20,308 bases of DNA, taken from Hyphomonas sp. GTDB lineage: Bacteria; Pseudomonadota; Alphaproteobacteria; Caulobacterales; Hyphomonadaceae. Below are positions 12,510 to 16,187 of this stretch, in pieces. The number at the start of each line of letters is the position of its first letter. Within the stretch, counting starts at the first letter, position 1. A model generated the notes under the pieces. The model was not told where the DNA came from and made no database searches. It saw only the letters and a program-made list of their open reading frames with translations. A program made the translations under genes and the position numbers. The stretch covers positions 1 through 20,308 of the forward strand of contig JARFRJ010000148.1 in assembly GCA_029287305.1 (NCBI GenBank), read 5' to 3'.

Positions 12510-14459
12510 ATGAAGCATATCTCTACATCTCTGCTCGCCCTCGCTTTTTTCAGCGGCTGCACCTTGTTGCCCCCCGCTTCAGAAGAGACGAAACCGGCTG
12601 AAACACCCCGCGAAACTGTCAGCAGTGAAGTCCCTGCCACGGTGACAGTCGCTCCAGGCGTTGAAATGAGCCTCGGCGGCGAGGACAGGATCAAAGCTCA
12701 AACCACGGCTGAAAAAATTGCCACCGAGAGCGCTAAGATCAATGCTTTTTTTGAAGACAAGTTTAATGAGGCCATCGCACGCAGTCCAATGAGCCAGACC
12801 TATTTGGGCATCAAGAATGATTATGACAAATGGGACGATGCATCAGAAGCCAATGAAATCAAGGAAATGAAATTCTTGCGTGCCGAGGTGAAACAAATGC
12901 GCGAGCGTTTTGACCCAGACTTTCTCGATGCCCAGGCTGCCTTGTCCTATCGTTTGAAAGCATTTCAATTAGAGCAGGCCGAACGGGACTTTAAATATCG
13001 TCAAAATGTCATGGTGTTCAGTCAGATGCGCGGCGCACATGCGTCTATCCCGGCTTTTTTGATCAATCAGCATCGGATTACTGATCTATCTGATGCCGAG
13101 GCCTATATTGCACGCCTGAACGGCATTCCTGAATATTTGGGCGCAAATCAAGCTCGCGCCAAAAAGGCTGCCGATACTGGCATACTCGCCCCACGCTTTG
13201 TCTATGGTTATGTTATTGAGTCCATCGACAATATTCTGAAAGGGTATCCGTTCACCGAGGATAAAGAGGCTCCGTCCCCGCTCTATGGAGATTTCACAGG
13301 CAAAATCGCTCAATTGGACCTCACCGAAGAGGAGGCCAAAGCCTTAACGCTCCGCGCCCGCACAGCGCTTTTGGAGGCGGTCCTGCCCGCTTATCAAAGC
13401 CTGCTTGCAGATTTAAAAATCTATCAGGACAAAGCGGGTGAGGAGGACGGGGTCTGGCGCTTGCCCGATGGCGAGGCCTTTTATGCCGCGATGCTCAATA
13501 ATATGACCACAACCGATATGACCGCCGATGAGATACATGATCTGGGTCTGGCGGAAATGGATCGCATACAGGCTGAAATGGGGGTGATTAAGGACCGTGT
13601 CGGCTTTGACGGCAGCTTGCAGGACTTTTTTGAATTCATGCGCACCGACCCGCAATTCTACAAGCCGGAAACCGAGGCGGGCAAAGCCGAATATCTGGCC
13701 GAGGCGACCGCCATTATCGAAAACATGCAAGCTGATCTGCCGCTTATGTTCAATACATTCCCGAAAGCTGAGCTGATTGTCAAAGCCGTCGAACCATTCC
13801 GGGAAAAAGCCGCCGGCAAGGCCTTTTACCAAAGCCCGGCCCGCGATGGATCGCGCCCAGGCATCTATTATGCCAATCTCTATCAAATGAGTTCCATGCC
13901 GACCTATCAGATGGAGGCGCTTGCCTATCATGAAGGCATTCCCGGCCACCATATGCAGCGAGCCATTGCGCAGGAACTGGAAGGCCTGCCGGAGTTTCGC
14001 AAATATGTGCGCGTGACCGCCTATACGGAAGGCTGGGGGCTCTATTCAGAATATCTGCCCAAGGAGCTGGGATATTATGAAGACCCGTATTCTGATTTTG
14101 GCCGCCTAGCCATGGAACTGTGGCGGGCTGCGCGTCTCGTCGTCGATACCGGTCTGCATTCCAAACAATGGAGTCGTGAAAAAGCCACGCAATATCTGAT
14201 TGAAAACACACCCAATCCGGAACGCGATTGCATCAAGGCGATTGATCGCTATATCGTTATGCCAGGTCAGGCCACAGCCTATAAAATCGGTATGATTAAA
14301 CTTCTGAAATTGCGCGAGCAGGCCAAAGCGGCTTTGGGAGATGCGTTCAGCCTTGGCGAATATCATGATGTTGTCTTGAGAGATGGACCTGTGCCGCTCT
14401 CTATTCTGGAAGAGAATATCAATGCATGGATCGCGGGAGAGGATCAGCCTGCAGAATAA
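12510..14459 (+). CDS. DUF885 family lipoprotein, putative zinc metallopeptidase
   Basis: Exported protein of the DUF885 (PF05960) family, widespread and poorly characterised, presumed metallopeptidases. The putative metal site is AYHEGIPGHHMQ, with His474, Glu475 and His480/His481, and the downstream acidic motif YTEGWGLYSEYLP (Glu507). VVDTGLHSKQWSREKA near residue 550 and DCIKAIDRYIVMPGQATAYKIG are further family marks. I start at ATG 12510, not the in-frame ATG at 12489, because AAGGA lies 6 nt before it and it gives a compact signal sequence ending FFSGC. Cys17 would be lipidated, though Phe at -3 is atypical. Residues 18-60 are a Pro/Thr/Glu-rich linker. Length 649. Its substrate is unknown. 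It is divergent from cckA across the CtrA-box region. Confidence 0.88.
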   Translation: MKHISTSLLALAFFSGCTLLPPASEETKPAETPRETVSSEVPATVTVAPGVEMSLGGEDRIKAQTTAEKIATESAKINAFFEDKFNEAIARSPMSQTYLGIKNDYDKWDDASEANEIKEMKFLRAEVKQMRERFDPDFLDAQAALSYRLKAFQLEQAERDFKYRQNVMVFSQMRGAHASIPAFLINQHRITDLSDAEAYIARLNGIPEYLGANQARAKKAADTGILAPRFVYGYVIESIDNILKGYPFTEDKEAPSPLYGDFTGKIAQLDLTEEEAKALTLRARTALLEAVLPAYQSLLADLKIYQDKAGEEDGVWRLPDGEAFYAAMLNNMTTTDMTADEIHDLGLAEMDRIQAEMGVIKDRVGFDGSLQDFFEFMRTDPQFYKPETEAGKAEYLAEATAIIENMQADLPLMFNTFPKAELIVKAVEPFREKAAGKAFYQSPARDGSRPGIYYANLYQMSSMPTYQMEALAYHEGIPGHHMQRAIAQELEGLPEFRKYVRVTAYTEGWGLYSEYLPKELGYYEDPYSDFGRLAMELWRAARLVVDTGLHSKQWSREKATQYLIENTPNPERDCIKAIDRYIVMPGQATAYKIGMIKLLKLREQAKAALGDAFSLGEYHDVVLRDGPVPLSILEENINAWIAGEDQPAE

Positions 14460-14554
14460 TTTTATCTCCAGACAATTATTTTATCTTTTTCAAAGCGGCA
14501 AATGAGGTTAAAGAGAAAGTGCTGGATATGATACGCCAGCCAATTGCAGCAACT

Positions 14555-14571
14555 GAAAGGAGGTGATCCAA
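14555..14571 (+). promoter_or_regulatory. 17-nt extended Shine-Dalgarno sequence
   Basis: GAAAGGAGGTGATCCAA is a perfect reverse complement of the standard 3' end of 16S rRNA (TTGGATCACCTCCTTTC). The GGAGG core is 7 nt from the ATG at 14571, and the complementarity runs through the A of the start codon. Such near-total pairing is far beyond a normal SD of 4-7 nt and is the defining feature of the rreB/rreR type of small mRNA. Confidence 0.9.
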
Positions 14572-14642
14572 TGTCAAGTGAGAAACCAGATAGGGCGTTT
14601 GGGTCCGTATCCGAGGAACATCGCATGGAGCAACCTCTATAG
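14571..14642 (+). CDS. 23-residue small ORF, rreB/rreR-like
   Basis: The ORF runs ATG to TAG directly behind the extended SD. The predicted peptide, starting MSSEKPDR and ending MEQPL, is short, charged and without membrane segment or signal. I recall that rreB of Bradyrhizobium (14 residues, GTG start) and rreR of the Rhodobacter group (18 residues) were described as small mRNAs with an SD of at least 16 nt, bound by 30S subunits and weakly translated; similar ORFs were noted in several alphaproteobacterial orders. This gene shares the architecture: extended SD, tiny ORF, structured 3' part and terminator preceded by ACGGAGGG. Here the start is ATG and the ORF is longer. Its role may lie in the RNA-ribosome interaction more than in the peptide. 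A possible -10 TATGAT is at 14527-14532, with no clear -35. Confidence 0.72.
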   Translation: MSSEKPDRAFGSVSEEHRMEQPL

Positions 14643-14660
14643 ATGATCTAGAGATATACG

Positions 14661-14710
14661 GGTTTTCGTGTTTGTAACAAAACCAGGAACCAGAGAGCTT
14701 TATCAAGCTC
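14661..14710 (+). other. two hairpins in the 3' part of the small mRNA
   Basis: After the stop codon, GGTTTT (14661-14666) can pair with AAAACC (14679-14684), and GAGCTT (14695-14700) pairs perfectly with AAGCTC (14705-14710) around a TATC loop. With the terminator they make three successive stems, which suggests a compact stable transcript of about 200 nt. A weaker stem, GCTGG/CCAGC at 14521-14540, lies in the possible leader. Confidence 0.5.
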
Positions 14711-14715
14711 ACGGA

Positions 14716-14742
14716 GGGTCGCACCAAGGTGCGGCCCTTTTT
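14716..14742 (+). terminator. rho-independent terminator of the small mRNA
   Basis: GGGTCGCAC (14716-14724) pairs with GTGCGGCCC (14729-14737), nine pairs including one T-G, around a CAAG loop. TTTTT (14738-14742) and then GCTTTT follow. It ends the small mRNA and any read-through from the DUF885 gene, since no terminator is visible between 14460 and 14554. The reverse strand lacks a T-run, so it should not stop cfa transcription. Confidence 0.88.
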
Positions 14743-14833: not shown

Positions 14834-14893
14834 GCGACCAGCGGAACGACCAGCGGGAGCAGCGCGACGGCGACCAGCGGAACGATCAGCGAC
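14834..14893. repeat. 12-bp-period GC-rich tandem repeat at the 3' end of cfa
   Basis: Five 12-bp units lie head to tail. GCGACCAGCGGA at 14834 is repeated exactly at 14870; ACGACCAGCGGG at 14846 recurs as ACGATCAGCGAC at 14882; the middle unit is AGCAGCGCGACG (14858). The last unit contains the cfa stop codon. The 13-mer GAGCAGCGCGACG (14857-14869) also occurs in the other repeat tract at 16367-16379, on the far side of cfa and in the same orientation. Confidence 0.8.
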
Positions 14894-16187
14894 GCGATCG
14901 GGCTTGCCGAGAAGCTTGGTCGACAAGTTTGACCGAACGTTCGTCGGCAAACGCTTTAAAGTCAGCAACACTTTGAGCTTTAGGGACGGGGTAGAGATAG
15001 TCACGCGTCAGTGGAGCCGCATCCTGTTGCTTGCCGATCTGCACCTGAAAAACATTGTGCAAGCCAGAGCGAAAAGAGACCTCGCTGCTGGCCAAATAAA
15101 AATCCCACATTCGGACAAAACGGTCATCATAAAGAGCTTCAGCCTTGTCCGCATTGTCCAAAAAGCGCGTCCGCCAGGCTCTCAGCGTTTCGGCATAATG
15201 CAAGCGCAAAACCTCAACATCCAGAACCATAAGCCCAGCTCTCTCTATCATCGGAACGATCTCTGAAAGCGCTGGAATATAGCCGCCCGGGAATATGCGT
15301 TTGGCAATCCAAGGATTGGTCACCCCAGGACCGGGTGCCCGCCCGATTGTGTGGATTAACGCAACGCCATCCTCCTTCAGGCAGGCCGCCACCCTATCAA
15401 AATACGCCTGATAATGGGGCACACCAACATGTTCAAACATGCCCACAGACACGATCCGGTCATAGGTCTCGGTCAGATTTCGATAATCCTGTATAGCAAA
15501 ACTGACCCGCCCAGACAGCCGCTCGGCCTCTGCGCGGCATTTGGCCAGATTGATCTGTTCACTGGATAAGGTGATCCCGTAAACATCGACATGTTCAGTA
15601 TTTGCAAGATGTAAGGCCATGCCGCCCCAGCCGCAGCCAATATCAAGAATCTTCTGTCCCGGCTTGAGACATAGCTTACGGGCGATATGATCTTTTTTCA
15701 GCCTCTGGGCTTCTTCCAGTGTTGTTTCAGAATTAGGAAAATACGCACAGGAATATTGCATATCCTCATCTAGGAAAAGCTGATACAGATCATTTCCGAT
15801 ATCATAATGGTGCGTCACATTCCGCAAGGATCGGCCTTGTGGATTAAACTGGGCCAAGGCACGAAACAGTCTTCTGAAAACCATAGCCAGCCTTTGTTCT
15901 GCATTGCCATTCTCATCCCTGAAACTCTGCCAGAGGAGGTCGACAAGATCGTAAAGATCACCGCTCTCCAGGCGCACCCCACCCTCCATATAGGCATCAC
16001 CAAACTGTAATTCGGGGTCGAGAAGAATTTTCCGCAACCAAGTTTCGCTTGTGATTGCAATCTCTATTGGCGGTGACGGTCCGTCGCCAAATTCACCAAT
16101 CTCCCCATTCGGAAATCGAATATTTAACCGTCCACCCTGCACGCCCCCGGACAGCCACCGCGTTACAATCTTGCTCAAAAACCCCAT
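14886..16187 (-). CDS. cfa: cyclopropane-fatty-acyl-phospholipid synthase
   Basis: SAM-dependent enzyme that adds a methylene group across double bonds of membrane phospholipid acyl chains, usually in late growth or under acid or membrane stress. An N-terminal lipid-binding domain (about 1-110, with FGDAYMEGGVRLESGDLYDL) precedes HHYDIGNDLY (126-135), MQYSCAYF with conserved Cys147, SAM motif LDIGCGWGG (181-189), YGITLSSEQ, and SVGMFEHVG with Glu252 of the bicarbonate/active site. The core ends near FQVQIGKQQDAAPLTRDYLYP. A further basic tail of about 35 residues runs to QARSRR and stops inside the 12-bp repeat, so the present C-terminus may be recent. GAGAGGTGAG before ATG 16187 is a good SD. 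Total 433 residues, somewhat longer than the roughly 380 of E. coli Cfa. Confidence 0.93.
   Translation of the reverse strand: MGFLSKIVTRWLSGGVQGGRLNIRFPNGEIGEFGDGPSPPIEIAITSETWLRKILLDPELQFGDAYMEGGVRLESGDLYDLVDLLWQSFRDENGNAEQRLAMVFRRLFRALAQFNPQGRSLRNVTHHYDIGNDLYQLFLDEDMQYSCAYFPNSETTLEEAQRLKKDHIARKLCLKPGQKILDIGCGWGGMALHLANTEHVDVYGITLSSEQINLAKCRAEAERLSGRVSFAIQDYRNLTETYDRIVSVGMFEHVGVPHYQAYFDRVAACLKEDGVALIHTIGRAPGPGVTNPWIAKRIFPGGYIPALSEIVPMIERAGLMVLDVEVLRLHYAETLRAWRTRFLDNADKAEALYDDRFVRMWDFYLASSEVSFRSGLHNVFQVQIGKQQDAAPLTRDYLYPVPKAQSVADFKAFADERSVKLVDQASRQARSRR

Follow-up and report, generated by a model that had tools for sequence, protein, structure and literature searches.

The closest described systems are rreB of Bradyrhizobium and rreR of the Rhodobacter/Roseobacter group, which were reportedly presented by Hahn et al. 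in 2017 (RNA Biol 14:1353). These loci are said to have a small open reading frame (ORF) preceded by a complement of the 3' end of 16S rRNA that spans 16 nt or more. Their product is reportedly a small transcript that associates strongly with the 30S subunit, is weakly translated, and becomes stabilised when its start codon is lost. Matches in Caulobacterales, Rhizobiales, Rhodobacterales and Rhodospirillales are said to have been mentioned in the same work already; this would make the occurrence in Hyphomonadaceae described below an extension and not a surprise.

A second point of comparison is the Rfam family RF01867 (caulobacter sRNA CC2171), which is filed as an sRNA and not as an mRNA. 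In Mesorhizobium huakuii, the RNA MH_s33 is filed under this family as one of 35 non-riboswitch candidates, of which 34 gave RNA-seq products, with MH_s6 as the sole exception (accessible part of PMC5596092). For Caulobacter, ribosome profiling is said to show translation of two RNAs earlier predicted to be non-coding (PMC4117421). CC2171 was nowhere named together with rreB or rreR in the literature searched, a link that Hahn et al. may already print. A more distant likeness is offered by start sites of Staphylococcus aureus, where the helix between the Shine–Dalgarno sequence (SD) and the anti-SD is likewise extended toward the start codon; this extension, however, serves ordinary mRNAs, with no dedicated RNA family described in the accessible text (PMC13009471).

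The window, that is, the whole stretch of 20,308 nucleotides of Hyphomonas sp. DNA analysed here, contains a gene of the rreB/rreR/CC2171 kind (the window gene) that is almost certainly real and conserved. What is added here to the earlier picture is the closing helix of the RNA, the conserved length of the ORF, and an apparent reach beyond Alphaproteobacteria.

The window gene and its complement of the 16S tail

The gene stands alone between a DUF885 gene, which ends at 14459 (PF05960, E 1.6e-183), and a convergent gene on the minus strand at 14886-16187, which encodes a cyclopropane-fatty-acid-synthase-type protein (PF02353). The ATG, the 23-codon ORF and the strong terminator that the initial annotation had placed after the DUF885 gene are all read directly in the sequence, and the "successive hairpins" that it mentioned are present in the fold, where they are here split into the named helices P1-P4. 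The parts of the gene are as follows:

14486..14513, + strand: putative promoter block TTTTTCAAAGCGGC...GGTTAAAG, aligning with the upstream block of many Hyphomonadaceae members
14519..14541, + strand: predicted 5' hairpin of the transcript, appearing in the fold with the SD held open
14555..14570, + strand: extended Shine–Dalgarno sequence, GAAAGGAGGTGATCCA, 16 nt complementary to the 16S 3' tail of the same-genus genome G001
14555-14569, + strand: 15-mer core of the SD, GAAAGGAGGTGATCC, read directly and followed by A at 14570
14571-14573, + strand: start codon ATG, read directly
14571..14642, + strand: ORF of 23 codons with ATG start and TAG stop, peptide MSSEKPDRAFGSVSEEHRMEQPL, read directly; open frame and stop position kept in 67 representatives
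14578..14582, + strand: 5' strand of the closing helix P1, GUGAG (codons 3-4), pairing with 14708-14712 in the minimum-free-energy (MFE) fold and across relatives
14599..14606, + strand: 5' strand of helix P2, pairing with 14686-14693; covariation in 36 Hyphomonadaceae sequences
14625..14640, + strand: hairpin P3, AUGGAG-CAAC-CUCUAU, holding the GGAGCARCCTY motif; supported by fold, covariation and the position of the RCCTYY motif
14686..14693, + strand: 3' strand of helix P2, with covariation in the same 36 sequences
14695..14710, + strand: hairpin P4, GAGCUU-UAUC-AAGCUC, above shuffles at the same place in 93/108 distinct sequences
14708..14712, + strand: 3' strand of the closing helix P1, CUCAC, directly adjoining the terminator; from the fold and relatives
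14713..14740, + strand: intrinsic terminator with a 12-pair stem, a loop of 4 and a T run; covarying pairs

The transcript is probably a small mRNA of about 220 nt, a length that rests on a guessed transcription start near 14519. A sigma-70 consensus was sought in the upstream block at 14486-14513, with 0 matches.

The central element of the gene is its complement of the 16S tail. The 3' end of 16S rRNA reads CTGGATCACCTCCTTTCT in eight Hyphomonadaceae genomes, one of them from the genus of the window (G001, L273). The initial annotation had described a perfect complement of 17 nt; a long complement before the ATG is indeed present, and its length is 16 nt (14555-14570), since its extension would require A in place of the preceding T and G in place of the A that follows. 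The duplex with the 16S tail is predicted at -29.7 kcal/mol, and that of a short AGGAGG site at -12.3. The assembly of the window itself (2.16 Mb in 523 contigs) lacks the 16S end, as a search for the 15-mer gave one forward match and 0 reverse matches.

Conservation in the family is extensive. The 15-mer followed by a start codon within 10 nt is found in 85/105 Hyphomonadaceae genomes from 8/10 genera, and a reversed control pattern is found in none; a search of related genomes for the motif, a near start codon and a short ORF had been proposed in the initial annotation as a check. Each of these genomes has the exact pattern at a single place, apart from a second copy at a contig end (G002) and a split gene (G076). 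A covariance model, R1, built from 38 sequences (10 from Hyphomonadaceae) with a structure supplied by hand, matches 97/105 genomes, including 84 of the 89 good ones, and all ten genera. The eight genomes without an R1 match are G025, G030, G033, G063, G066, G068, G099 and G103, and three of them are less than 90% complete. In the 12 R1-matched genomes that lack the exact 15-mer, 14 of its 15 letters are kept, and 10 of the 12 changes preserve G-U pairing (seven GATTC, one GATCT, one GTGGTCC and one GGAAGG), although the seven that share one change reduce the number of independent events; the remaining two, both GATCG, forfeit the last pair with the 16S tail. The SD-ORF-terminator arrangement, whose loss in relatives had been set beforehand as a ground for rejection, is conserved.

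These results bear on the reading that the match is due to chance or that the element is a stray fragment of 16S. The 15-mer is, by its nature, the reverse complement of a 16S end, as such a fragment would be. A given 15-mer is, however, expected in the window about 4e-5 times (by arithmetic), its surroundings show no other 16S-like sequence by eye, the window has no Rfam match at the gathering score, and place, spacing and structure are conserved in the 97 genomes; this reading can practically be dismissed. It is also very improbable that the element is a leader or attenuator of the downstream gene. A small ORF followed by a terminator would suit such a role, and in some genera a gene on the same strand follows (clusters c4 and c8), but the downstream gene varies by genus and in many cases, the window included, is convergent. 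In general, the genes adjoining the element vary from genus to genus.

The likeness to rreB and rreR proposed in the initial annotation is upheld by relatives with ORFs of 14 and 18 aa, in which the same 15-nt complement stands one base from a GTG start and is followed by a tiny ORF and a terminator. The 14-aa ORFs are VSYLKRCHLAGIAR in L242 and VSLTKRCHLAGIAR in L243 and L244, from genomes of 6.7-8.0 Mb; the 18-aa ORFs occur in L246-L253 (e.g. VSRKVLETCDGTTWEARL), and in one of them, L251, AAAAGG replaces GAAAGG. The accessible part of PMC7217052, which cites Hahn et al., describes SP-1 of 14 aa in Bradyrhizobium japonicum and SP-3 of 18 aa in Dinoroseobacter shibae. Because of these equal lengths, we infer that the 14-aa loci are rreB and the 18-aa loci rreR, with the qualification that ORF length is not unique to the rreR type, since 18 aa are likewise encoded in L257-L259, three relatives that start with ATG.

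The window gene has the sequence traits of both: a 16-nt complement, a tiny ORF directly behind it, and a terminator that ends the short unit. It is nonetheless neither of them proper. In place of the GTG and the 14-aa peptide of rreB it has an ATG and 23 codons that encode an unrelated peptide, and it lacks the 18-aa peptide of rreR, which begins with GTG in the eight loci read. The ATG start and the longer peptide had been correctly noted at the outset.

Against RF01867, the window scores 37.1 bits (E 1.7e-6), below the gathering cut-off of 75. The window gene has an SD block and a closing helix after the start that resemble those of the family, and the match is largely carried by the SD block. 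The consensus of RF01867 begins with CAACAAUCGAAAGGAGGUGAUCCAGUGUCUCAUUGUCAU, which is the same SD block, and its order is likewise SD, start, helix and terminator, with the closing helix CAUUGUC/GACAAUG at the position of P1 in the window gene. In contrast to the window gene, members above the cut-off have GTG starts and VSH-type ORFs. The cut-off was reached by 3/20 loci scanned. In the class, 49/240 genomes match, seven of them above the cut-off, and among 14 named controls Caulobacter vibrioides alone matches.

RNA fold and reading frame

The stretch 14525-14742 folds with an MFE of -75.7 kcal/mol (z -4.25), and 0/200 shuffles were equally good. The closing helix P1 was assessed in 62 representatives less than 65% identical, drawn from 160 distinct places at which a terminator was called; some of them had been selected by RTGAG. 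P1 scores at least 13 in 45/62, compared with 8.8% for shuffled 3' strands and 40.9% for strands swapped between sequences, the latter value being high because many sequences share GTGAG/CTCAC. In three representatives no P1 was found. The letters of P1 change in step, as in ATGAGATT/AATCTCAT, CGAGATC/GATCTCG, TCATTGTC/GACAATGG, TTCCA/TGGAA and GTTGTG/CACGAC.

Covariation, which had been proposed as a check, is present. In the alignment of 38 sequences, the three modelled helices together give a value of 0.272, as against 0.161 when shuffled (0/500), and 36 Hyphomonadaceae sequences contain 136 double-changed cells versus 38.6. All eight pairs of P2 are changed on both sides within these 36 sequences, and P2 has one mismatch in the window. 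P1 is invariant among them, so that the support for this helix comes from other families. In the window, P1 has just 5 bp and shares part of its 3' strand with P4, a competing hairpin; P1 and P4 therefore cannot both form fully.

In the unconstrained fold of the window gene, part of the SD pairs with the 5' leader. In the predicted fold, opening the SD alone costs 3.7 kcal/mol, and opening the region from -20 to +15, as for full loading, costs 9.0. The idea of an intramolecular anti-SD as a general gate was considered over 65 loci, from which ORFs above 45 codons, L032, the split L050 and eight non-element loci were left out. The pairing is better than dinucleotide shuffles in 44/65 (11 at p<0.05), and controls exceed shuffles in 27/65 (6 at p<0.05), 28/65 (0) and, with the core only, 36/65. 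The general form of the idea was dropped as weak, and it is kept for the rreB-/rreR-type sequences alone, in which the SD itself is paired in the MFE fold in 3/3 rreB-type and 8/8 rreR-type sequences (from MFE folds, with no shuffles). In these models, the SD would pair with UCACCUC or CACCUCC-like strands, unlike in the window gene, where P1 would gate the start. The folds of relatives cover 23 of 24 sequences, as L238 did not fit the pattern. The RCCTYY motif is concentrated by position: it occurs 45 times, as against 14 expected, and 34 of these occurrences lie at +48 to +65. An anti-SD function does not follow from this, as the same motif contributes to hairpin P3. As a separate observation, L147 carries a 13-bp complement of the SD (with G-U) within its RNA, and L255 one of about 11 bp in its fold.

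Stop codons were counted in 67 representatives less than 60% identical, drawn from 275 places, leaving out L050, L323-L325 and loci judged not to be the element. Within the first 17 codons, a stop occurs in frame 0 in 1/67 (a 14-aa type) versus 34/67 in frame 1; at codons 17-30 the counts are 60/67 versus 13/67. An ORF of 14-39 codons follows the start in 65/67 representatives. Frame 1 is the fair control here, and frame 2 (42/67 early stops) is a poor one, because GTGAG puts a TGA there. Judged from these sequence comparisons, a reading frame of set length is maintained, with the start codon, the frame and the stop position under selection. Such selection speaks against a non-coding RNA that would titrate 30S subunits, with binding of the 16S tail as its whole function and the ORF as a by-product. 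That explanation would account for the near-invariance of the complement and would agree with the filing of the element as an sRNA by Rfam and, in the accessible text of PMC5596092, in Mesorhizobium huakuii; on balance we consider it quite unlikely.

The evidence for constraint on the peptide itself is mixed. Tree-based counting over 46 distinct MSSEK-type ORFs gives an excess of synonymous changes across the whole ORF (94 vs 68.1 expected, 0/1000), so that the synonymous bias suggested initially is found at this level, but it fades between the RNA elements, in codons 6-18 (64 vs 54.3, 57/1000; 131/2000 in a repeat test). In the 15 Hyphomonas-type ORFs, there is no excess between RNA elements (12 vs 11.0, 842/2000). 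Close pairs of 36 ORFs, which are not independent of each other, have synonymous to non-synonymous ratios of 282:174 in frame 0 and 62:290 and 55:280 in the other frames; the strong coding claim that could be drawn from such pairs was weakened by the tree-based counts.

The open frame of set length, the pairwise ratios and the whole-ORF excess, with which constraint on amino acids is possible, would all suit a functional micropeptide, whose strong SD would just secure expression and whose RNA fold would be secondary. This explanation is unlikely in view of the fading excess and of the peptides of other genera, which have little in common beyond residues forced by P1 and P3. In addition, the GGAGCARCCTY motif in P3 is kept in the MSVT-type genus while the reading frame through it shifts, and the 14-aa and 18-aa small proteins are described as unstructured by NMR/CD in the accessible part of PMC7217052. 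The amino-acid sequence appears to be weakly constrained.

A possible mechanism of 30S tethering

The fold and the frame together are consistent with a 30S-tethering, gated and poorly translated mRNA, which is the reading that we regard as rather probable. Its basis in the sequence is the complement of 15-16 nt to the 16S tail, kept 0-1 nt from the start codon. A 30S subunit would dock through the extended SD while the fold keeps the start codon shut; in the window gene P1 would serve as the gate, and in relatives of the rreB and rreR types the SD would itself be paired. The subunit could be tethered without starting, because opening the SD costs far less than opening the region for full loading, and pairing with the 16S tail would return about -30 kcal/mol. 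Once the gate opens, the ORF would be read and the ribosome released, so that transit would matter and the amino-acid sequence would matter little. Tethering with a shut start would also explain the strong 30S association and weak translation that Hahn et al. are said to have observed.

The order of synthesis may add a further property to this tethering mRNA. P1 needs the last-made strand of the RNA, and capture during synthesis would therefore be favoured over later capture. As P1 would form only once nearly the whole RNA has been made, the fraction of transcripts that 30S captures ahead of P1 closure would report free 30S. On this ground, the RNA can tentatively be proposed to sense or buffer free 30S subunits.

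More speculative is a comparison with 6S RNA, a small RNA that acts as a mimic of the natural binding site of RNA polymerase. The RNA of the window gene would, by analogy and with no homology claimed, mimic the binding site of the 30S subunit instead. It is conceivable, though doubtful, that the gene encodes a ribosome counterpart of 6S RNA, born open, caught by 30S during synthesis, or else self-locked by its last-made helix. The whole 16S tail would then be paired, and translation of an ORF that is conserved in length and largely free in sequence would be the release step. If this is true, the RNA would both gauge and buffer free 30S, and CC2171, rreB and rreR would form one family with interchangeable locks, which would act either through a helix behind the start codon or by masking the SD.

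For the tethering mRNA as such, the comparison brings rreB, rreR and an Rfam "sRNA" into one structured and translated class, in which ORF length and an RNA gate would be kept while the peptide drifts. A gene devoted to a near-perfect docking site for the 30S subunit raises the question of how cells sense free 30S.

Range of carriers and inserted segments

In the class Alphaproteobacteria, the exact pattern occurs in 60/385 genomes and 51/277 genera, and R1 matches 63/240 genomes, with the weakest matches, stretches of about 24 nt covering the SD alone, being doubtful. Most of the sampled genomes of the class thus have no match (325/385 with the exact pattern and 177/240 with R1). Named records with the gene amount to at least 119 stretches; among the matches listed, records named Hyphomonas, Henriciella and Ponticaulis place the family as Hyphomonadaceae. 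There is usually one gene per genome among the loci read, and a search for the element on plasmids gave no match.

A looser pattern applied to the phylum matched 77/398 genomes, including seven that do not belong to the class (G523, G526, G541, G597, G604, G794 and G803). These seven were set aside, as by eye their sites lie inside or before other reading frames, and a second match in G719 (L227, L270) was rejected as the same element on the same ground. Three loci titled Acidobacteria or Sulfopaludibacter (L119, L138 and L157) bear Hyphomonas-type peptides and were taken as wrongly labelled bins, not as true acidobacterial carriers.

At least five genomes named Woeseiaceae or Gammaproteobacteria carry the element (L105, L118, L131, L167 and L168), with a 26-codon ORF and a P1 of up to 9 bp; L183 and L213 have the same kind of ORF. 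In seven Woeseiaceae-type genomes, a one-piece tmRNA scores above the cut-off in 6/7 and the alphaproteobacterial form in 0/7. The latter form is found in 2/3 alphaproteobacterial genomes tested alike, the assembly of the window itself having no match, and its absence alone therefore proves little. A search for 16S ends in the seven genomes gave one match each, which was taken as the complement within the gene itself. The element apparently occurs in some Gammaproteobacteria, with the possible alternative that these matches are wrongly binned single contigs.

A further observation concerns insertions. Three Hyphomonas-type genomes have an inserted segment in the gene, of about 4.1 kb in L323 (G036), 3.2 kb in L324 (G037) and 2.0 kb in L050 (G076). 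In each, the promoter and the SD-start stretch lie on the left; to their right come the cargo, a right end common to the three and then the SD-start stretch again, now with the whole gene. The small-mRNA gene seems to serve as an insertion site. The main ORFs of L050 and L324 gave no family in PADLOC and Pfam, and two ORFs of L323 match DRT type 3 defence reverse transcriptases, namely Drt3a (E 1.6e-93) and Drt3b (E 2.6e-176).
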